In this document: positions 15,089 to 55,947 of the stretch, piece after piece
Layout: every line of letters begins with the position of its first letter
Position numbering within the stretch: position 1 is the stretch's first letter
Assembly (NCBI RefSeq): GCF_023715895.1
Contig: NZ_JAMBOO010000012.1
Location: 1 to 64,000 of the forward strand
Length of the DNA: 64,000 bases
Reading direction: 5' to 3'
Source of the DNA: Domibacillus indicus
GTDB lineage: Bacteria; Bacillota; Bacilli; Bacillales; Domibacillaceae
The notes under the pieces: generated by a model
What the model was told of the DNA's origin: nothing
Seen by the model: the letters and a program-made list of their open reading frames with translations, nothing else
The model's database searches: none
Program-made: the position numbers and the translations under genes

Positions 15089-15922
15089 TTATTGCATTAA
15101 TTTATAAGCGGAAATAGCATTTTTTAGGGTTCCTTTTACGTTAAGCTGGTCAAGAGGGACTCCTAAATTAACCATCGGCAGAGCAAGGCTGGGTTTTATA
15201 CCTGTAAAGATCAAATTAATACCAATCAGGCCGAGTGACTGTTTCAGCTGAAACAGTTTATCTGTACCCATTGTATCTACCTGAGGGACTCCAGATAAAT
15301 CTAAAATTAGGTCATTGATTTTTAAATCTTTACATTTAGGCAGCACATTTTCTAATAAAATGCTGGCTCTTTCTTCACTTAACTCACCAATTAAGGGAAG
15401 AACAGCTACTTGATCTGAAAGTGCGACAACTGGAAAAGACACTTCATTAAATGCTTTTTGTGCAGCTCTTATCGCTTTAGTATGATATTCCACATACGAA
15501 ACACTAAAGACTTGCGCAGTTTGATCCAAAATAGCATCAATAATCCGGTTTACTTTTAACACCGAGAAAGGGTTCATAGCCTCAATGTCTATTTCTTTCT
15601 CAATATAATCCCAAATCACTCCTCGGTAACAGCGGACCGTAAGCATCAAATCATCGATTCCTACTCCATGGTGAACGGCTCCTTCAGCTGTTTGTACAGC
15701 CCAGTCAGCTACAGAATCAGTGACATGAGCGTCACTCTGATCTAAGATGGCTGTTCCAATAAAATGAATTAACTGGGCTCTCCATTTGGTAATTGCATCG
15801 TCGGCAAGCCCGCTTTCATTAAGAAAAGAAGTATATCGTTTATCTAATTTCCGGCTGATTTCTATTGATATTTCTATATGGTGGCTCCTTAATAGCTGAC
15901 CCGCTGCTTCAAAAAACTTCAT
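15089..15922 (-). CDS. RsbR-like stressosome protein (STAS) A
   Basis: A 277-aa protein: a helical non-haem-globin-like sensor region (residues 1-150), a linker helix with KAFNEVSFPVVALSD, and a C-terminal STAS domain (about 160-277). RsbR proteins form the stressosome core with RsbS and bind the RsbT kinase, which phosphorylates threonines to release the sigma-B cascade. Here the first site is kept (GVPQVDT, like Thr171 of RsbRA), but the second, the A-Q-T of RsbRA Thr205, reads A-L-P. It is nearly the same length and layout as the protein at 17782-18615, so they are probably duplicates. GAGAGGTGG precedes the ATG. Confidence 0.85.
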   Translation of the reverse strand: MKFFEAAGQLLRSHHIEISIEISRKLDKRYTSFLNESGLADDAITKWRAQLIHFIGTAILDQSDAHVTDSVADWAVQTAEGAVHHGVGIDDLMLTVRCYRGVIWDYIEKEIDIEAMNPFSVLKVNRIIDAILDQTAQVFSVSYVEYHTKAIRAAQKAFNEVSFPVVALSDQVAVLPLIGELSEERASILLENVLPKCKDLKINDLILDLSGVPQVDTMGTDKLFQLKQSLGLIGINLIFTGIKPSLALPMVNLGVPLDQLNVKGTLKNAISAYKLMQ

Positions 15923-17781: not shown

Positions 17782-18615
17782 TTACAGCACTTTGGACGTA
17801 GCAATCGCATTTTTCAAGGTACCTTTTATATGAAGCTTGTTAATCGGAATCCCCAAGTTGACCATAGGTACAGCCAGTTCTGGTTTTATGCCTGTGAAGG
17901 TCAAAGAAATACCGATAATTGCAAGAGAGTCTTTTAACTGAAATAACGTATTAGCCGATATTGTATCGATACGGGGAACCCCTGATAAGTCTAAAATCAG
18001 CTCATCAATTTTTAAGTCTTTACATTTAGGCAGTACATTTTCTAATATGATGCTGGCTCTTTCTTCATCCAGTTCGCCGATTAAAGGGAGAATCGCTACT
18101 TTATCTGATAGGGCTACTACAGGAAAAGAAACTTCGTTAAATGCTTTTTTGGCAGATGCTATCTTTTGTTTATAATAATTTATATATGTAGCATTAAATA
18201 GGTAAAGTATTTGATCAAGAAGATCCTCTATAAATTGATGCACTGCTAAAACTGTAGAAGATTTTATTTGATCAATTTCTATTTCTTTTCTAATATATTT
18301 CCAAATGGTTGTTTTATAAGAGGCAAGAATAATGATTAGTTTCTCCATCTCTATTCCTTGCTCAACGGATACTCGAGCCGTTTCCTTAGTCCAATCAGTT
18401 ACTTCTTCCGCTACATCGGTACCATTTTGATTTAAGATGGCTCTGCCAATCAGCCCAACTAAGTGTGCCCGTCTTTTATTTGCAATATCATTAGAAAGAC
18501 CACCTTCATGAAGCAATGAATGATATTCGTTGTTCAATGCTCTGTTAATGTCTACTGCTATCTCAGCACTATTATTCTGTATCAGCTGTCCTACTGTTTT
18601 AAAAAATGACATCAT
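17782..18615 (-). CDS. RsbR-like stressosome protein (STAS) B
   Basis: A 277-aa paralogue of the protein at 15089-15922 with the same order: helical sensor domain, linker KAFNEVSFPVVALSDKVAILPLIGEL, and STAS domain. The first phosphorylation site is kept (GVPRIDT) and the second is again replaced by proline (A-V-P). The sensor halves have diverged far more than the STAS halves, as expected for stressosome subunits that sense different signals while packing into the same core. GAAGGTGGG precedes the ATG. Confidence 0.85.
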   Translation of the reverse strand: MMSFFKTVGQLIQNNSAEIAVDINRALNNEYHSLLHEGGLSNDIANKRRAHLVGLIGRAILNQNGTDVAEEVTDWTKETARVSVEQGIEMEKLIIILASYKTTIWKYIRKEIEIDQIKSSTVLAVHQFIEDLLDQILYLFNATYINYYKQKIASAKKAFNEVSFPVVALSDKVAILPLIGELDEERASIILENVLPKCKDLKIDELILDLSGVPRIDTISANTLFQLKDSLAIIGISLTFTGIKPELAVPMVNLGIPINKLHIKGTLKNAIATSKVL

Positions 18616-18883: not shown

Positions 18884-19151
18884 GTGTAAGTACACATACA
18901 TAAGCGGGCTGCGTGTCTTTCAATCAGGGAATAGTAGCCGTTTGGTCCTTGTTTCTTTTAAAATGCAGACTGCAATAGGTTTCAAATTGCTTTTAACAGG
19001 GAAAATAATGTTGGTTGAATAGGCTACCCCCAGCACCCCACTCTTACTTCCTATTCTTACTCCTGAAAAACAGATTAAATTTTTTGGTTGATTGGTTTTC
19101 GTAGTAATATACATAAGAAAGATGTTACCTAATAAAAGTGAGGACATTGAA

Positions 19152-20000
19152 ATGACAGAAAGATTAAATCCATCCCTGGATATTCGTTTTCAAGATTTTG
19201 AAGAAGCGGCGGTCCGGGTTCTTCAAATCATGGCGGAATTCATCCATGTAAATACGTTATTTATTGCCCGAAACGATGGCAAAACGAACCGCATGGTAAA
19301 GGTATTAAACAAAAGTGAAAAGCTTGTGAAGGAAGGGGATGAACGCCCATTCCCCGAAGCGTACTGCAGCTTAAGTGTGGAACATGGCGAACAGGTTCTT
19401 GTCATTCCAGACTTGAAACAGCATAAAGAAACAAAAAACATGGACGTTACAGAGAAACTTGGCGGCGGGACATTTATTGCGATTCCGATTAATTATAAAG
19501 ACGGAAAAAACTACGGAACGATTTGCGGCCTCGATACAGAAAAGCAAACATTTACAGAAAAACAAATGAAGATGTTTGAGACGATGTCTGCTCTTTTATC
19601 GTACGTATTAGAGCTTGATTACACGAACAAGCAGTTGTTTACCATATCGGCGCCGGTTGTAAAGGTCGCAAAAGGTATTGCGATTTTGCCCGTTGTAGGT
19701 GACATCGATGAACAGCGTGCAGAAAGTATTATTGAAAAAGCGCTTTTTAAAAGCCGTGAATTAGAGCTTGAGCGCCTCATTGTAGACTTGTCCGGCATTT
19801 TGCATATAAATCATACAGTCGTAGCCTCACTATTAAAAATCTCCACAGTTTTAAAGCTGGTAGGTGTAGATTGCACAGTAACCGGCTTGCGTCCTGACTT
19901 AGCTATGAAAGCCGTTCAAATGAATGCAGATTTAAAAGAAATGGTGTTTGAAAAAGATTTGGAAAAAGCATTGCAGAAAATTGGCTTCAAATTGAAGTGA
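19152..20000 (+). CDS. GAF-STAS sensor protein
   Basis: A 282-aa protein with an N-terminal GAF domain (about residues 20-165; GGGTFIAIPINYKDGKNYGTICGLD is the GAF core) joined to a C-terminal RsbR-type STAS domain (about 170-282). It may place a small-molecule or redox sensor on the stressosome. Both phospho-threonine positions are lost: V-D-T is I-N-H, and A-Q-T is A-M-K. The start at 19152 is supported by a GAGGA site; the frame extends to 19092 with no such site. A terminator overlaps the stop codon. Confidence 0.85.
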   Translation: MTERLNPSLDIRFQDFEEAAVRVLQIMAEFIHVNTLFIARNDGKTNRMVKVLNKSEKLVKEGDERPFPEAYCSLSVEHGEQVLVIPDLKQHKETKNMDVTEKLGGGTFIAIPINYKDGKNYGTICGLDTEKQTFTEKQMKMFETMSALLSYVLELDYTNKQLFTISAPVVKVAKGIAILPVVGDIDEQRAESIIEKALFKSRELELERLIVDLSGILHINHTVVASLLKISTVLKLVGVDCTVTGLRPDLAMKAVQMNADLKEMVFEKDLEKALQKIGFKLK

Positions 20001-29939: not shown

Positions 29940-30531
29940 ATAAAAGTAAAGAGCTACAGGAGTTTTTGCTGCTAAAAGCCCGTCAAATAATAGAGGAATG
30001 GTATCATTCTTTAGATAAAAGCAATCCTTCAGGGGTTTACAGCCCTACAGATCCTCAAGCTGTCTAAAGGAGCAAAACTATGAGTTTCATTTGCACTTTT
30101 GCCGGGTGTTTGTCCAGGAGGAATTCACCTTCCTGCAGGAACTCGAGGAATGGGTGTTAAAGGTAGCTTCGGATGAGCGTCACCTATCCACGCCGATTCA
30201 TTTTATTATGAGGGAATTTTTTAGAACGTGCGATCAGTTTCTTCAATTTGTTCAGCATTTTGTATCGGCCAACAAAGGAAGCTATTCATGGGAAATCATC
30301 GAAATGTGGAATCAAAAAATTACGAGCACAATCTCTAAAATCGTTACTTGGTATACGGAAACATATCATGAATTCTCCGCAAAAAGATTGCAAAGCCAGC
30401 AGGAATTGATCAATGAATTAAGCTTGCCTGTCATCAGCCTTAGCCGGAACGTATCACTTCTTCCGTTAGTAGAGAATATTGACACGACCAGAGCTAAATA
30501 TATTCTTAAACGGATACTAAAACAATGCTTT

Positions 30532-30690
30532 GAACTACCGCCCACTTACCTGACGGTTGAAGTGGGGGATTCCTGGGCAAGAGGATCTTCGACCCCCAGT
30601 AATCAGGCTAACCCCGTATTCCAACGGTTTTATGACCAAACTTAAATAGACTGAAGTGAAAGAAGCCGAAGAGCTTCTTTTTTAATATTC
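30532..30690 (-). ncRNA. Predicted omega RNA of the rsbR element
   Basis: This is the right end of the element, downstream of tnpB on its strand, with the CCCACTT/AAGTGGG hairpin that TnpB guide RNAs typically carry next to the guide. The guide would be read from outside the element, starting at 30531 on the minus strand (AAAGCATTGTTTTAGT), which is rsbR sequence. The 5' limit is unknown. Confidence 0.5.
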
Positions 30691-48419: not shown

Positions 48420-49235
48420 TTAATCCAGGCTCTCTAATGCTCTTTTCACAGTAGAAAACGTATCTGTACCTGAAAGCTCAAGCCCGCTTTTCACCACAAT
48501 TTGAGCTAAATCAGGACGAAGACCGGATGTGATGAGGTGAATACCCACTAACTTGAGCATCATGCCCAGCTGTTGAAGGTAGGCCGCCATCTTTACATCA
48601 ATTTGGGAAAGACCTGAAAAATCGACAATGAGATGATCGATCTCCATATCTGATAGTTTAGGAAAAACGTGCTCTAGTATATAGTTGGCCCGGTAGGCAT
48701 CCATTTCTCCTATAAGAGGGAGAATCACAATTCCTTCCCTTACAGGTATAATAGGCGCGGATAGAGCGGCCATTTCTTTTTTCGCCTGCTCTTTCTTTTC
48801 CTCATACAGCTGTTCAAATGCAAAAATGGTCTCATTTAAGCTGCTGTCCAGCATTTGATTGATACGCTTAATGATCAAAACGATTTGTTCCAGTGACAAC
48901 TGAAGCTTTTGTCCGATTTCTGTAAACATATCGGTTAACACTTCCCGTGTTGGAGGATACCGGACAGCCAAAAGAGAAACCCTGCCGCCTGAAGAAGTCT
49001 GCATATCTGCATTTTTTCGGCTCCACTCTATAAAGAAATCAGGAACGCATTTTTCTTCTTTCACAAAGGAATCTCCAAAAAACCGTAAAAACTCAAGGTA
49101 CATTGTACGTGCCTGCTCTTTTTCCCAGTCTGGAATCGTCAATTCCAGCTTTGAAATCACTTTTTCAACGACCTCAGTTGCTAATGCTTCTACGTTGTCA
49201 TTAATATAAGCCGAAAATTTTAAAAATGAACTCAC
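48420..49235 (-). CDS. RsbR-like STAS protein with altered phosphosites
   Basis: A 271-aa protein with a helical N-terminal half (about 1-150), a charged linker helix (FAFEQLYEEKKEQAKKEMAALSAPIIPV) and a STAS domain. It has the RsbR layout, but the first threonine site reads Q-I-D-V instead of V-D-T and the second A-Q-I instead of A-Q-T, so RsbT-type phosphorylation should not occur at either position. GTG 49235 follows AAGGGGA at the right distance; the frame runs on to 49295 without a site. Confidence 0.82.
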   Translation of the reverse strand: MSSFLKFSAYINDNVEALATEVVEKVISKLELTIPDWEKEQARTMYLEFLRFFGDSFVKEEKCVPDFFIEWSRKNADMQTSSGGRVSLLAVRYPPTREVLTDMFTEIGQKLQLSLEQIVLIIKRINQMLDSSLNETIFAFEQLYEEKKEQAKKEMAALSAPIIPVREGIVILPLIGEMDAYRANYILEHVFPKLSDMEIDHLIVDFSGLSQIDVKMAAYLQQLGMMLKLVGIHLITSGLRPDLAQIVVKSGLELSGTDTFSTVKRALESLD

Positions 49236-49511
49236 GATGGCTTCCCCTTTTTCTCTATTACATACTTTAACACATGTATTTAATGGTTGTTCCATAAAAA
49301 TCTATTTTCTGTTTTCATTCCACACAAATAAAACAAAAAGCAAACATCATCCTAGTATTAAGTATCGGGTCATTTTCTTTATATTAAAGATGACTTTCTT
49401 CACAAATTAGTATTATTTATGATCAGCAATGTGCATTTATTATATAAAAAAAAGCCCATTCTTACTAGGTTAATAAGAACCAGCGTTTTTTTATGTTACC
49501 AGAAGAGCATG

Positions 49512-49584: not shown

Positions 49585-51549
49585 TTAATCAAGCCATGTA
49601 TATTGTCTGCCCCAGCTTTCTTTTGCAAGAGATGTAATCTCTTCAACGATCTCATCTTCTACTGCATACGAATCCCCTTGTTCGTAAGGATTATAATGAA
49701 AAGCATACATACGTGCCGTAAATTGTGAAAACGGAAGAGATGCTTCTCCCTCCTGTTCTCCATACCCTTTTACAGAAGGCTCAATGCCCTGTCCCCAGTT
49801 TTGGCCGCTGTCGTTATTAGGATTGTAAAAATAAATGCGGTACTCTCCTGCTTCGTCTGCAGCGATCCGCTGAATAGAAACCGCGTGAAGACCTAACAGA
49901 TCACCATGCACATTGGTAATATAAATACCTACTGGATTCGGATAAATTAATTCATACCCTTCGTTATAGTCAGGATGATGGGTAGAATAAAATAATCGGA
50001 CAAAACCGGCGTAATCTGTTACCGCTCCGGTCGCAGGATTAATGATATTCGCAAATCCGCGCGGCACCCACTCTCCATAAAACTCGGGATTCACCCATTT
50101 ATGGCCGTCTTCTCCGCGCAAAGCAGTTCGTTTCATCATTTCATTGTAAATCTTATCTAAATGGGGAACGAGAACCTTTGAAACGGGATCTAGTTCTTGA
50201 TGAATCTCTGAAGCGACCCCTCCTTCAAGCGAAGAAGAGTGAAGGGGTTCTCCTTCAAAAATAATGTCTACATCGTTGTCTCTTGCTCCCCGGGCAATAA
50301 ATTCAAGAAGCTGGCCAGGGCCGTGCTGTGCCCAGAGGCTGAGAGCCCGTGCAGACTGGCATGTCGGATTTAAACCCTGCCCAATTCCTAAAGGCTGGCC
50401 AAGTACACTAAGCGTTCCGGCTAAAAGAACAGCGTTCGCTGTTAAGCCTTCCCGTTTATTTTCAGGCGTAAGCAGGATTTGTTTCACTTCCGGATGAATA
50501 TCAAGTTCAATCAGCCGGCGAATACTCGGAAGAAGCGGTTCCTGTGAAAGCAGTCCCCGGTCCAGTACCTTCCCAAGCCCGTAAATAGATTGAGCTGTAT
50601 GAGGGTGGATAGCGACCTGAATCATGTCATGGACAAGATTGGATTGAGCATTTAAAATCGCTTCACCAGTTTCAGATAAAGAAAGAGCGGCTGGCAGAAG
50701 CTCCGGTTTTACCCGATTTAAATGTCTTAAAAAAACAGCGTGATAAGGAGAAACAAGCCCTGTATCCCTTACTGATCCGGCAAATGCTTCTGCTTCTTGT
50801 TTCAATTCCTCTTCTGACGCATTTTTTAAGCTTAAGCGGTATTCCCTAAAGCTGGACCACTCTTTGCTTAACGGGCTTGGTGCCGTAACAGCAGCCGAGT
50901 ATGCCTGTAAAGACTGCTTCACTTCCTCACTAATATCACTTTCCATCATTTGTTTGGCCATCGTAATCATTTTTACAATTCGGTTGACCATGATCGGCCT
51001 TTGGACAGTCAGCCGGTCAATTTCGGCTACAATCTGATTGGCAATTGCCTGAAAAGAAAGTTCATTTCCTAAGAAGCGGAATAACCGTTCTGCCCGTTCA
51101 ATATGTTCACCTGAACCAATTCTGGCTTCTTCTGTTTCTGGCGGAAAAAGAATATCTAAATTTAATGCCAGTACTTCGTTTAAAAATTCTTTCGCTTCCT
51201 GGTCAGACACTTCTTTATGCTCGTACAATCCTTTGGCAATCGCGAGCATGCGCAATTCACTAAGCAGCTCAACAATCGAATTGACGCCTTTTAGCTTTAA
51301 AGAGCCGCCGACAAAAGGGGGCTGGAGCTTTGATGCTTGCTCCCATGGACCTCCCTGGAAAACCCCTGCTTCATCAAATCGAGGGGCATAGCTGAATAAT
51401 TGTTTAAGGCCATCATCGGTTCGTGCCAGATCGATGGCTTGTTGAAATACTTCTGTTTGATACAAACTTTTGGCATAAGGTTTTGCCTGCCCCAGCGTAT
51501 CAAGAGCTTGTTCGAATTTTGTCGGTGCCAGTTTGCTTTCAGCGTCCAT
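49585..51549 (-). CDS. Uncharacterised 654-aa protein with a Cys-His-Asn triad pattern
   Basis: I do not recognise a named family. The N-terminal 350 residues are helical. From residue 385 comes GIGQGLNPTCQSARALSLWAQHGPG, with Cys397 at the start of a helix as in papain-like enzymes. His555 lies in LLGLHAVSIQRI on a strand, and Asn576 in YRIYFYNPNNDSGQNWG. Order and spacing (158 and 21 residues) resemble papain (Cys25, His159, Asn175). A thiol peptidase, amidase or transglutaminase-like activity is therefore plausible. Start 51549 is chosen for its GGGAGGA site; the frame runs to 51615, overlapping the upstream gene. It lies 40 bases after an ATP-grasp ligase gene and surely shares its operon. 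Confidence 0.6.
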   Translation of the reverse strand: MDAESKLAPTKFEQALDTLGQAKPYAKSLYQTEVFQQAIDLARTDDGLKQLFSYAPRFDEAGVFQGGPWEQASKLQPPFVGGSLKLKGVNSIVELLSELRMLAIAKGLYEHKEVSDQEAKEFLNEVLALNLDILFPPETEEARIGSGEHIERAERLFRFLGNELSFQAIANQIVAEIDRLTVQRPIMVNRIVKMITMAKQMMESDISEEVKQSLQAYSAAVTAPSPLSKEWSSFREYRLSLKNASEEELKQEAEAFAGSVRDTGLVSPYHAVFLRHLNRVKPELLPAALSLSETGEAILNAQSNLVHDMIQVAIHPHTAQSIYGLGKVLDRGLLSQEPLLPSIRRLIELDIHPEVKQILLTPENKREGLTANAVLLAGTLSVLGQPLGIGQGLNPTCQSARALSLWAQHGPGQLLEFIARGARDNDVDIIFEGEPLHSSSLEGGVASEIHQELDPVSKVLVPHLDKIYNEMMKRTALRGEDGHKWVNPEFYGEWVPRGFANIINPATGAVTDYAGFVRLFYSTHHPDYNEGYELIYPNPVGIYITNVHGDLLGLHAVSIQRIAADEAGEYRIYFYNPNNDSGQNWGQGIEPSVKGYGEQEGEASLPFSQFTARMYAFHYNPYEQGDSYAVEDEIVEEITSLAKESWGRQYTWLD

Positions 51550-51589
51550 TCTATATTCCTCCCTAACCGGTCTCCAAAATAAAAGTTTT

Positions 51590-52807
51590 TCAAAGATAGA
51601 AATCATAGGTTTCATATTTTTTCATCAAACCGCGCATTTCTTCACTGTCTTCCCCAAAGAAGAAAATAGTCCCGTAGTGATTGCCAAATCCAACCCGCTC
51701 CGCTACTTTGCTTGTAGCCGGGATGAACATATCATGCTTTTCAAAATAAGGATGCGATTTTAATTCTTCCGGCACTTCCAGGCGGTCGATAATTTTAACG
51801 CGTGGATAAACCATCAAGCTTCCAGCATACCCTTTCGCAGAAGTTACCTCTTCAGGAAAAAACACTTCCAGCTCTTCTGCGGTTGTATCTGGGTCACTGC
51901 AAAGAACCTGGGCCTGGTATGCACTGAAACCGTATGCCCGCTCAATTAAATCAAAAATATGTCCCCCAGGGATCCGCGCTGCGACTTCTCCAAAATGAAG
52001 CGTGCCGTCAGGTGAAATGAAAAATTCCGGGTGGATCACTCCATATTTGATTTCAAAGGAAGCGACCAGCTTTTCAATTTCTTCTCGGATTCTAGGGCGC
52101 CATTCTTCTAGAGAAGGAGATGCAGGAACAAAATTAGAATGCCCTAATTGGACATATTCCGTAATGTTTAAGAAATAAACTTTCCCATTGTGAACAAACG
52201 CTTCACAGGAAAACTCCTGACCGTCTAAGTGGCTTTCCATTAAACAAGGAAAATCTTCTTGAGGAATCAGGTCAATATCAGAAGCATCCCGTATAACCCG
52301 GTGGCCAACCGTGCCGGCTTTATTTAAAGGCTTTACATGAATAGGGTCATTGATATCCCCGTCTATTTTAATTAAAGCCTCGTTCACTCGTTTTAAAAAG
52401 CGGTACACATCTTCTTTTTGGTACGCTTCTTCAAATACCCCGACTTTGATGCCGGACATTTGCGCTTTTCGCTTCATAAGCCCTTTATCTCGAAGAAGAA
52501 GAGATCGATTGAAAATACGGGGATCATCCTGGAACCTCGCGTTTAAAGCACCTGCCCATTCAACCGTTTCTTCATAGATTGGAACCGCAAGCTTTACGCC
52601 TAAAGAATACAGCTCTTTATATAGCTCCTCTGATTTTTCATTTAACCGCTCGAACTGCCAGCCGACAAACTGAATATCATTTTCTTTGGCAAACGGTTCA
52701 AATTCAGGCGGTCCTACTACAAGAAAAGGCCGGTCAAGCTTGTCTACCGCTTCAATGACAGGCAGACTCCACCCAAGAAGGGCTGTAACTTTTTTTTCAT
52801 TTTCCAT
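51590..52807 (-). CDS. ATP-grasp ligase
   Basis: A 405-aa ATP-grasp enzyme, which activates a carboxylate as acyl-phosphate and joins it to an amine. Features: a Rossmann-like N-domain (VTALLGWSLPVIEAVDKL...FLVVGPPE), the ATP-binding Lys segment IHVKPLNKAGTVGHRVI, then EFSCEAFVHNGKVYFLNITEY and HPEFFISPDGTLHFGEVAARIPGG, where Glu and Asn/Arg positions bind Mg-ATP. The pattern is nearest to amino-acid/peptide ligases of the BacD or carnosine-synthase type. Substrates are unknown. ATG 52807 follows GGATGGGAAG. It is the first gene of a two-gene operon with the Cys-His-Asn protein. Confidence 0.8.
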   Translation of the reverse strand: MENEKKVTALLGWSLPVIEAVDKLDRPFLVVGPPEFEPFAKENDIQFVGWQFERLNEKSEELYKELYSLGVKLAVPIYEETVEWAGALNARFQDDPRIFNRSLLLRDKGLMKRKAQMSGIKVGVFEEAYQKEDVYRFLKRVNEALIKIDGDINDPIHVKPLNKAGTVGHRVIRDASDIDLIPQEDFPCLMESHLDGQEFSCEAFVHNGKVYFLNITEYVQLGHSNFVPASPSLEEWRPRIREEIEKLVASFEIKYGVIHPEFFISPDGTLHFGEVAARIPGGHIFDLIERAYGFSAYQAQVLCSDPDTTAEELEVFFPEEVTSAKGYAGSLMVYPRVKIIDRLEVPEELKSHPYFEKHDMFIPATSKVAERVGFGNHYGTIFFFGEDSEEMRGLMKKYETYDFYL

Positions 52808-52840
52808 TTCTTCTTCCCATCCTTTGACTAAAAAATAACA

Positions 52841-52943
52841 AACAGGGGTATAATTCCCTATCTTACTATAAATCAAACTTTTTTGTCTGATTTTTGTTTA
52901 TTTTCTAATATTTTATGGTACTAATTAATAGTTTATATATGTA
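52841..52943. repeat. Imperfect direct repeat, copy 1 (period 120)
   Basis: About 100 bases line up, without gaps, with 52961-53063 exactly 120 bases away; the best part is TTTTTGTTTATTTTCTA and TTAATAGTTTATATATGTA. It lies in the divergent promoter region of the ATP-grasp operon. Confidence 0.75.
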
Positions 52944-52960
52944 AGAGATAAATATTCCAA

Positions 52961-53063
52961 AAGAGTAGTGTAATTACCCATTTTTAAATAAATTAAACTT
53001 TTTTTGAATTTTTTTGTTTATTTTCTACTTTTTTAAGGTAGTGATTAATAGTTTATATATGTA
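52961..53063. repeat. Imperfect direct repeat, copy 2 (period 120)
   Basis: Second copy of the unit at 52841-52943; its end is 10 bases before the ribosome binding site of the GNAT gene. Confidence 0.75.
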
Positions 53064-53084
53064 TATGACAAAGGAGGAATGAAA

Positions 53085-53651
53085 ATGAACACTTGGTATA
53101 TGGCACTATCAGAATATTTTCCGGCAAATGAAATGAAATCAGAAGAGCATTTTGAGCGGCTTCTAAAAGACAAAGGCTGTTCCTACAAGATTGAAGAAGG
53201 TGCTGGCTATGTACTCGCTTATTTTGAACAGGAGGATTTTTTGTTTGTAGACTACGTACTGGTACATAGCCATAGCCGGAGCGCAGGTTTAGGAAGCCGA
53301 ATCATGGACCAGTTAAAAAAGAAGAAAAAGCCCATCCTTCTTGAAGTAGAGCCGGAGTCGATTCACGAACCGGATACCATTAAACGGGTTCACTTTTACA
53401 AAAAAATCGGCTTTCAATGTATTGATCACATTCAATACGTGCGCAGGCACCCGATCACCAAAGAACTGAATGAAATGAAGCTTTATTGCTGGTCTTTCGC
53501 ACCAAAATCAGATAGATGGATAATAGAGAAGATGGCTGCTGTTTATCAGGAAGTTCATGCTTACCAATCAAAAGCTTTGTATGGGACACAACCGCAGGCA
53601 ATCAATGAAATTCTTATTCTACGGGAACATACATACAATCAGGCTAAATAA
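53085..53651 (+). CDS. GNAT-family acetyltransferase
   Basis: A 188-aa protein with a GNAT core in residues 35-120: YVLAYFEQEDFLFVDYVLVHSHSRSAGLGSRIMDQL, where RSAGLGSR is the acetyl-CoA pyrophosphate loop, then ILLEVEPESI and VHFYKKIGFQCID. The C-terminal 70 residues are extra and include a Trp/Lys-rich stretch. The substrate is unknown. ATG 53085 is used because AAGGAGG is 7 bases before it. It is transcribed divergently from the ATP-grasp operon across a tandemly duplicated promoter region, so the three genes may be co-regulated. Confidence 0.8.
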   Translation: MNTWYMALSEYFPANEMKSEEHFERLLKDKGCSYKIEEGAGYVLAYFEQEDFLFVDYVLVHSHSRSAGLGSRIMDQLKKKKKPILLEVEPESIHEPDTIKRVHFYKKIGFQCIDHIQYVRRHPITKELNEMKLYCWSFAPKSDRWIIEKMAAVYQEVHAYQSKALYGTQPQAINEILILREHTYNQAK

Positions 53652-55128: not shown

Positions 55129-55947
55129 GTGATAGAGGAGTTAGCCGCTGCAATCAAAAAGAAAAAAGCCATTTTGTTTGCCGGATCTGGCGTCTCTAAA
55201 AACTTGGGACTGCCGGATTACTCAGAAATGATTCAACAAATTGCTGAAAATCTCGGTTATAACCCAGACGAGTTTACAGCATGGGGTAACAATGACTTTT
55301 TAACTCTGGCCGAGTATTATTGTTTAGAAAAAGGTTCACTCGGCGAACTGCGCAGCTGGATGGACCGGAAATGGCATAACCCGAAGATTGAGCTTGAACA
55401 CTCGGAGATCCATCGAATGCTGATTGAATTGAATTTCCCCTTAATTTATACAACCAATTTCGACCGCTGGCTTGAAGAGGCACATGACTTTTATGGAAAG
55501 CCGTACACGAAAATCACCAATGTTGCGGATATTACTCAAATTGAGGAAGGAAAAACGCAGATTGTCAAATTTCACGGTGACTTTGACGATGACTCCTCTA
55601 TTGTGTTAACGGAATCCAGTTTTTTTAAGAGGCTGGATTTCGAAACATCCTTGGATATTAAGCTCCGTTCAGACTCATTAGAGAAATCTTTGCTTTTTAT
55701 CGGCTACAGCCTTTCGGATATTAATATCCGCTATATGCTTTATAAACTGCATAATCAGTGGAAAATTTCTAAATACGAGCATTTAAGGCCAAAATCGTAC
55801 ATCTTGCTGAATGAACGGAATCCTATTAAAGAAACAATCCTAAAAGAAAGAGGGATTACCCCGATCATTTATGAAAATGAAAATCCCGGAAAATCCCTGC
55901 ATGCTTTTTTAACGGATTTACTCAAACTTGCCCGAGAAGAATCATAA
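55129..55947 (+). CDS. SIR2-like domain protein
   Basis: A 272-aa protein that is almost entirely one SIR2-like (NAD-binding) domain. Family motifs are present: AILFAGSGVSKNLGLPDYSEMI (the GAGxS loop), YTTNFDRW with Asn110, and VKFHGDFDDDSSIVLTE with the catalytic-type His149; FIGYSLSDINIRYML is the second nucleotide-binding loop. Proteins of this SIR2_2 group are mostly found in anti-phage systems, where they degrade NAD; some are stand-alone. No TIR, Argonaute or HerA partner lies beside it. The GTG start has GAAAGGAG upstream. Confidence 0.82.
   Translation: MIEELAAAIKKKKAILFAGSGVSKNLGLPDYSEMIQQIAENLGYNPDEFTAWGNNDFLTLAEYYCLEKGSLGELRSWMDRKWHNPKIELEHSEIHRMLIELNFPLIYTTNFDRWLEEAHDFYGKPYTKITNVADITQIEEGKTQIVKFHGDFDDDSSIVLTESSFFKRLDFETSLDIKLRSDSLEKSLLFIGYSLSDINIRYMLYKLHNQWKISKYEHLRPKSYILLNERNPIKETILKERGITPIIYENENPGKSLHAFLTDLLKLAREES

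Follow-up and report, generated by a model that had tools for sequence, protein, structure and literature searches.

The window, a 64,000-nucleotide stretch of a Domibacillus-like genome, contains on its minus strand a two-gene unit made up of an ATP-grasp ligase gene (GRASP) and, 40 nt behind its end on the same strand, the gene for a 654-residue protein of a family without a name (FAM). An acetyltransferase gene (GNAT) diverges from this unit across a duplicated promoter region (Table 1). An earlier reading made from the letters of the DNA, referred to here as the sequence-only reading, had described these three open reading frames (ORFs), and all of them are present as it described.

Table 1. 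Features of the GRASP-FAM locus and of its surroundings, in positions of the window.
Feature	Position	Strand	Remarks
FAM	49585..51549	-	654 aa, family without a name; ATG at 51549, stop at 49585; an alternative ATG further upstream at 51615 would give 676 aa; predicted all-helical at about residues 1-384, predicted papain-like domain at about 386-620 with Q391, C397, H555 and N576
Predicted catalytic residue span of FAM	49822..50379	-	codons read from the sequence
Codon of Q391	50377..50379	-	
Codon of C397	50359..50361	-	
Codon of H555	49885..49887	-	
Codon of N576	49822..49824	-	
GRASP	51590..52807	-	405 aa, PF13535 ATP-grasp ligase by similarity, first gene of the pair; start likely ATG at 52807, stop at 51590
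GNAT	53085..53651	+	divergent; YjbC paralogue by similarity; alternative ATG at 53079
Promoter duplication, copy 1	52829..52948	strand-neutral	
Promoter duplication, copy 2	52949..53068	strand-neutral	75% identical to copy 1
SigB-like promoter toward GRASP, copy 1	52853..52878	-	GTTTGA-N14-GGGAAT
SigB-like promoter toward GRASP, copy 2	52974..52998	-	GTTTAA-N13-GGGTAA
STAS protein	48420..49295		C-terminal half of YtvA-family type
Weak STAS relatives	15089..15922, 17782..18615, 19092..20000, 30091..30645		
SIR2-like protein	55129..55947		272 aa

The GRASP and FAM genes were inseparable in the genomes searched, and this conclusion is well supported. In named genomes 578 relatives were counted, and at the 80 of these 578 that constitute the named loci GRASP stood directly ahead of FAM on the same strand in every case, with ORF gaps from -26 to 129 nt. 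The same arrangement was seen in all 42 further loci (L092-L133), among which L093 is the window itself, L132 has both genes partial and some genomes repeat earlier ones. Of the three overlapping genome samples, drawn from the order (299 genomes), the class (398) and the phylum (398), the order sample contained FAM in 47 genomes, and a GRASP profile search of the same 299 genomes at E<=1e-40 returned the identical 47. Each of the 48 GRASP matches was followed, in the same orientation and 18-118 bp downstream, by a FAM match. The co-occurrence corresponds to a Fisher p of about 5e-56, which is overstated because the genomes are related. GRASP is single in 46 of the 47 genomes, and the remaining one (G190) has the pair twice, as pairs. 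Pairwise distances of FAM and GRASP are correlated (r 0.80 over 105 loci, duplicates dropped), a value that reflects shared phylogeny too and was not used as proof.

GRASP exceeds the cut-off of the ATP-grasp profile PF13535 (37.1 bits vs. 27), and its nearest PDB sequences are the L-amino acid ligases 4wd3 (E 5e-9) and 3vot (E 1.5e-4). Four residues, K159, E261, E274 and R278 (numbered from ATG 52807), are invariant across 36 GRASP sequences, and we take them to have ATP- and metal-type roles. Profile and conserved residues both place GRASP among the ATP-grasp ligases of the PF13535 type, an assignment that is well supported by similarity and that makes amino-acid ligation a candidate activity. 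Two GRASP lineages could be distinguished, of which subtype B comprises 15 of 105 loci and is 47-58% identical to the others.

FAM had been called a protein of no recognised family, which agrees with the lack of any Pfam or NCBIfam family at E<=1 and of any PDB sequence at E<=10 with the protein as query; a profile of its C-terminal domain likewise gave nothing useful against PDB sequences. The window protein has no match in Pfam at E<=1 to the models of calpain (C2), phytochelatin synthase (C83), C39 or DUF3335, and when 67 FAM members were scanned these four were absent among the 25 families listed of 48. The predicted active site is conserved: Q391 and C397 are kept in 126 of 129 alignment rows and H555 and N576 in 124, the remaining rows having gaps, in an alignment that takes in fragments, FAM paralogues and the Halomonas-labelled protein described below. 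The papain-like order of Cys397, His555 and Asn576 pointed out by the sequence-only reading is thus invariant in homologues wherever the alignment has the residue. In papain, the oxyanion Gln lies six residues ahead of the catalytic Cys, and Q391 holds the same spacing to C397, which gives FAM a conserved putative Gln-Cys-His-Asn active site.

Structure prediction is consistent with this arrangement. In the AlphaFold model of the whole protein, with a mean predicted local distance difference test score (pLDDT) of 88.9, FAM is helical to about residue 384 and a mixed domain comes after it; the domain modelled alone has a pLDDT of 88.2. A helix of residues 397-409 begins at C397, H555 falls within the strand 551-564 and N576 directly follows the strand 570-575, so that the model shows papain-like topology and order, with Cys opening the central helix and His and Asn on the following sheet. 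The top Foldseek match of the domain is the calpain-1 core (E 1.2e-3, probability 0.99), and 49 of the 50 rows shown by VIA are papain-like cysteine enzymes by title or known class, the other row (22oc) being unclassed. These rows, with at most 15% identity to FAM, include calpain-3 (Z 7.9, root-mean-square deviation 4.3, 202 residues aligned), the PCAT1 C39 domain (Z 7.9, 3.2, 126), phytochelatin synthase Alr0975 (Z 6.6, 4.2, 150) and staphopain (Z 6.5, 4.1, 140). If ungapped at the start, the ranges printed by VIA would place C397 onto residues 21 of PCAT1, 24 of staphopain and 70 of Alr0975, which are presumably their catalytic cysteines. The domain was assigned as papain-like because the matches are uniform in kind, a Z below 8 being weak by itself, and on the basis of the model the membership of FAM in the papain-fold (clan CA) class, with predicted thiol catalysis, is well supported.

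The same observations bear on two other explanations. That GRASP and FAM are unrelated neighbours without a joint function, with the Cys-His-Asn order arisen by chance, is hardly credible: according to the note of the tool, a VIA Z below 8 can reflect a common arrangement, and against this stand both genes in 47 of 47 genomes with adjacency in 48 of 48 cases and the four invariant catalytic-type residues, each strongly disfavouring chance, together with domain fold matches that are almost all papain-like. The second explanation is reversible protein modification, in which GRASP would tag a protein with an amino acid or peptide, FAM would take the tag off, the helical domain would bind the protein and GNAT would cap or regulate. 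FAM is large, its all-helical domain of about 350 residues is weakly like ARM/HEAT-type repeats, the de-conjugating enzymes ZUP1 and UfSP are among the papain-like fold matches, and neither a transporter nor a precursor peptide turned up that the lineages have in common, all of which fits a protein substrate. This explanation is nevertheless unlikely in our estimate, in that no conserved candidate tag or target was found nearby, the ligases of known structure nearest to GRASP are titled L-amino acid ligases, and the extra ornithine gene set and the AblB-type GNATs described below point to free diamino acids.

In the other two samples FAM has matches in 13 of 398 class-sample genomes and in 1 of 398 phylum-sample genomes, which is the window's own. 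At the family level it occurs in 6 of 24 genomes, one of which (G015) has broken fragments only. Near-identical relatives of the window protein are found in G012 (99%, same species), G016 (98%) and L012 (98%, Domibacillus sp. PGB-M46). In G015, which belongs to the same genus, the fragments (C80; L006, L009-L011) are located between SIR2 and STAS genes such as those that flank the window locus, and they are probably the remains of a recent loss of the pair. A 1.83-Mb plasmid-collection record labelled Halomonas sp. PA16-9 (L133:4690-8028) contains FAM, located behind GRASP, with 40% and 56% identity, respectively, and no match to either GNAT query; if this label is right, the pair crosses phyla. 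A locus titled Chryseobacterium sp. ISL-80 (L020) is of the Bacilli type, with a YjbC-like GNAT, GRASP, FAM and a second FAM-type gene, and its label is probably wrong.

This second gene, FAM2, encodes a paralogue of about 610 aa with 35-45% identity and lies downstream of FAM in 17 of the 80 named loci (e.g., L014, L015 and L063); where complete it keeps the Q, C, H and N residues, and it mostly lacks the last 30 or so residues. Further FAM copies stand apart from the pair in some pair-bearing genomes (e.g., G288). No FAM relative was found in the phage collection, and none of 26 stretches of viral contigs that fitted a search pattern encodes one. FAM, GRASP and GNAT had no Padloc match at E<=0.01, and a defence role is therefore not suggested. 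Near the pair, no precursor-type small ORF conserved beyond genus-level synteny was found; in 13 loci of the Rossellomorea type, the three small ORFs that follow FAM were taken as synteny and not as precursors. A yebC-type gene, a ClpC-type ATPase, DUF1232, DUF3231, HAD and an SLH/SLT protein were set aside as lineage-bound or single neighbours.

These neighbourhoods are the place to consider a secondary-metabolite cluster, for instance one for a ribosomally synthesised and post-translationally modified peptide (RiPP), in which GRASP would act as cyclase or ligase, FAM would cleave off the leader peptide and GNAT would serve in tailoring or self-resistance. The combination of ATP-grasp, protease and GNAT is generally known to be common in such clusters. 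With no conserved precursor-like ORF found, no transporter family linked across lineages noticed in the partly annotated neighbour clusters and a pair that is normally single (one GRASP in 46 of 47 genomes), we regard this origin as very improbable.

Different acetyltransferase genes recur beside the pair. The window GNAT scores 31.1 bits with PF13508 (cut-off 27), and R65, G68 and G70, invariant in 26 GNAT sequences, make up the R-x-x-G-x-G acetyl-CoA motif of GNATs, so that profile and motif both assign it to this family. A second copy in the window genome, 38% identical over 175 aa, lies directly upstream of spx, itself identified by the Spx model (245.7 bits vs. cut-off 123), and from its place beside spx we take this copy to be YjbC. 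The window GNAT is, by full-length similarity, a YjbC paralogue. The extra C-terminal domain attributed to it by the sequence-only reading is present, and it is common to the whole YjbC-like family rather than peculiar to this protein. Members of that family were found in 248 of the 299 order genomes (E<=1e-12), and one adjoins the pair, divergently, in 32 of the 80 loci. Co-occurrence of the three families, which the sequence-only reading proposed to survey, holds strictly for the ligase and the papain-like protein (47 genomes) and not for the GNAT, adjacent in 32 of 80 loci only.

The spx-linked copy also gives some ground for placing the pair in thiol-stress metabolism, where a phytochelatin-synthase-like FAM would move a gamma-glutamyl-type acyl group on a thiol peptide made by GRASP and the YjbC paralogue would have come from the Spx/disulfide-stress network. 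Phytochelatin synthase Alr0975 is among the fold matches, with Z 6.6, and the GNAT is paralogous to the gene upstream of spx. We consider this quite improbable, given that the Spx link is limited to the YjbC-type lineage, that no thiol-synthesis gene was recognised among the annotated neighbours and that the window FAM has no Pfam match.

In subtype-B loci, an AblB-type GNAT unrelated to the YjbC-like one was found in 10 of 11 named loci. In seven of these it lies upstream in the orientation of the pair, separated from it by one small ORF in L083, and in the other three it is located downstream and is convergent. All 10 copies, matched by coordinates, score 220-246 bits with TIGR03827, whose cut-off is 205.1. 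G190 has such a GNAT at its subtype-B pair as well; the gene is missing in L072 and the Halomonas locus, and the upstream DNA of L099 and L101 is too short to judge. One GNAT type or the other therefore adjoins the pair in 42 of the 80 loci (32 + 10, no overlap). No gene for AblA (lysine 2,3-aminomutase) was found within the ablB-carrying loci by motif scan and genome search; five of the 10 ablB-bearing genomes have one elsewhere, and the other five have none above cut-off. Ordinary Nε-acetyl-β-lysine synthesis as the role of the AblB-like GNAT is thereby weakened, not eliminated.

A third acetyl-transfer enzyme joins the pair in five genomes, which carry a second argJ in or near the GRASP-FAM operon, as part of argCJB(D) in four; all five have two ArgJ proteins compared with one in each of three comparison genomes. 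The order is GRASP-FAM-argC-argJ-argB-argD-FAM2 in L037, argC-J-B and then the contig end in L029, argC-J-B and then FAM2 in L039, and argJ and then FAM2 in L038. The operon arg genes of L029, L039 and L038 are 82-90% identical to the L037 copies. In L041, argC-J-B-D-FAM2 lies at the end of another contig, which fits a continuation of the operon and is no proof of it. In the four genomes read, the other arg set is an argCJBD cluster with either argF or carAB plus an argF-like frame behind it (family matches confirmed argF, carA and carB in one genome each). It shares 39-64% identity with the operon copies of L037, compared with 77-89% for the L199 set. Neither carAB nor argF turned up next to the operon arg sets that were read (L037 and L199), and these sets would therefore end at ornithine.

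At the Pontibacillus loci L061, L064 and L071, a divergent ORF of 350 aa lies just upstream of GRASP. The one tested (L061) matches the C45-family acyltransferase/hydrolase model NF040521 with 258.1 bits and would be a further acyl-transfer enzyme beside the pair; as a neighbour it is bound to this lineage.

The duplicated promoter region described by the sequence-only reading was recovered as two copies of 120 nt, although Tandem Repeats Finder did not score the duplication. Among the 32 loci that have a GNAT next to the pair, L024 excepted, self-comparison found a comparable repeat in L012 only (64% ungapped; others <=49%), and the duplication looks species-level. Each copy holds one SigB-like promoter on the GRASP strand. 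According to passages of one paper, the SigB consensus is GTTTAA-N15(±2)-GGGTAT, its Bacillales form is KTTTW-N12-17-GGGWAW, and yjbC of B. subtilis has a perfect SigB promoter (PMC9847131). Site 2 fits the Bacillales form and site 1 is one letter off. A strict SigB-like pattern, framed after the sites had been seen, is present in 22 of the 80 regions ahead of GRASP that were compared, those of the window and of 79 loci; 100 shuffles gave 0.56 on average and never more than 2. In each of the 22, a strict site lies 98-125 nt before the conserved segment around LxGWS. Upstream of GNAT, the strict pattern was found in 6 of 33 regions (shuffle mean 0.32, maximum 2). A looser pattern gave 25 of 80 for GRASP (mean 2.76, maximum 9) and 9 of 33 for GNAT (mean 1.54, maximum 5), and the plain consensus score is mildly raised, with 10 of 80 regions at >=10 of 12 vs. 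3.8% of shuffles. The SigB gene itself is present in the window genome (436.5 bits vs. cut-off 315), and the cassette may be under SigB control.

Two neighbours of the locus may be mentioned here. The STAS protein next to the SigB-like operon has a C-terminal half of the YtvA family type (NF052652, 97.9 bits, below the cut-off of 250) and is possibly an RsbR-type stressosome paralogue; four more weak STAS relatives are encoded in the window. The SIR2-like protein (PF13289, 91.2 bits) resembles ThsA defence models in their SIR2 portion (PDLC00407, E 5e-32, residues 1-218) and has little over half the length of that profile.

From the pairing, the enzyme classes, the predicted fold, the invariant residues, the recurrent acetyltransferase linkage and the promoter element, all obtained by computation, we infer an enzyme activity, a substrate, a product and a SigB dependence that can be combined as follows. 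GRASP and FAM may form a stress-linked cassette for making or turning over a small acetylated diamino-acid peptide or amide, possibly a protective solute, a proposal to which we give an even chance. GRASP would use ATP to activate a carboxylate and couple it to an amine. FAM, with Q391 at the oxyanion hole, C397 as the nucleophile and H555 and N576 as its partners, would form an acyl-thioester, and the acyl group would then be hydrolysed or transferred. A lineage-specific acetyltransferase, that is, the YjbC-like GNAT, the AblB-like GNAT in subtype B or the extra ArgJ, could add or move an acetyl group on the amine. Most likely, the substrate would be a diamino acid of the ornithine or lysine type. 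The product would be a small peptide or amide carrying an acetyl group; it would be formed while SigB is active and could plausibly protect the cell against stress or osmotic load. An ornithine-type substrate is suggested because the arg genes sit in the operon beside a separate second set in the four genomes read. Acetyl chemistry is suggested because the YjbC-like GNAT adjoins 32 of 80 loci and the AblB-like GNAT 10 of 11 subtype-B loci, and a stress role because of the SigB-like sites upstream of GRASP, the presence of the SigB gene and the SigB promoter of yjbC. Halobacillus halophilus, according to a passage on this species, accumulates Nε-acetyl lysine and Nδ-acetyl ornithine (PMC2412884). 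The idea of ligation plus acetylation in the sequence-only reading is strengthened, with two unrelated GNAT families and a second ArgJ joining the pair across lineages, and its small peptide or amide product stands as one interpretation beside protein modification.

Several observations weigh against this proposal. Neither GNAT type was found in 38 of the 80 loci, where neighbours are partly annotated; the GNAT-less loci include all Rossellomorea-titled loci and L085, from a genome titled Halobacillus halophilus, which has the pair with neither type beside it. A single group of five genomes has the ornithine genes, and argJ is all that L038 retains of them. In the five genomes with AblA, the substrate of the AblB-like enzyme could be β-lysine unrelated to the pair. 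Foldseek against PDB and a viral library gave no FAM match at E<=0.001, and the VIA Z for FAM is always below 8, a level that the tool calls common. The helical N-terminal part of about 350 residues has no clear relative, and the weak similarity that it shows to ARM/HEAT-like repeats might mean that FAM acts on proteins. The window GNAT has no strict SigB-like site upstream, and PygaO, with GTTTAT-N14-GGGAAT, shows no clear SigB dependence in the passage describing it though its site is of the same grade (PMC9847131). The strict pattern is post hoc and its sites are limited to one group of related loci; a conserved element is therefore shown and SigB control is not proven. A bolder form of the proposal, in which the pair represents an undescribed route to a new class of stress solutes, FAM is a papain-fold acyltransferase and not a protease, and three unrelated acetyl-transfer enzymes were independently recruited, must be called doubtful.

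A strictly paired ligase and predicted papain-fold enzyme in 47 of 299 order genomes and in halophilic genera, with FAM lacking any Pfam or NCBIfam match, constitutes an annotation gap. If the product is a protective solute, the pair could give a gene basis for the acetylated diamino-acid solutes of salt-tolerant bacilli, and an enzyme of the papain fold would have a part in making small molecules. Thanks to the ornithine genes and the SigB-like promoter, the nature of the product can be tested directly.

Among known systems, that for N-acetylglutaminylglutamine amide (NAGGN) appears to be the best-described one working like the proposed mechanism: in excerpts of its description, an osmotic-stress-induced asnO-ngg-peptidase cluster makes an acetylated dipeptide amide (PMC8070244). 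Acetylation, peptide-bond formation and a peptidase gene would be common to both clusters as far as those excerpts go. In NAGGN synthesis, as described there, Ngg alone acetylates and ligates and AsnO is an amidotransferase, whereas here GNAT and ATP-grasp are separate genes, the third enzyme is papain-like and the hosts are mainly Bacilli. The scanned proteins included neither AsnO nor the fused GNAT-ATP-grasp Ngg; no search for the two was made in the remainder of the genome. L-amino acid ligases (4wd3, 3vot) resemble GRASP in being of the PF13535 type, and its conserved HxE and E-V/I-A-x-R-x-x-G-G segments align with 4wd3; the similarity is weak, and GRASP differs in always being paired with FAM in the genomes searched. 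The calpain core, staphopain, C39 and phytochelatin synthase share with FAM the predicted papain-like fold and the Gln-x5-Cys...His...Asn order, whereas FAM has its helical N-terminal part of about 350 residues and a strict ligase partner.

To our knowledge, the described route to Nε-acetyl-β-lysine includes no ligase or papain-like enzyme. Likeness to the acetylated diamino-acid solutes lies in the AblB-type GNAT and the ornithine gene set at some GRASP-FAM loci; Nε-acetyl-β-lysine is mentioned as a compatible solute of methanogens in a passage of PMC1224877. No description of the GRASP-FAM pair was found in open-licence PubMed Central (PMC) papers. Neighbourhoods of amidoligase, peptidase and GNAT were reportedly predicted by Iyer et al. 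in 2009, so that the combination of amide ligase, papain-like enzyme and GNAT would, as a general type, have been predicted before. DUF3335 papain-like proteins fused to GNATs, described in part of PMC10318531, are of the same general kind, and the window FAM differs in having no Pfam match. At the core of the cassette stands a protein family without a name.

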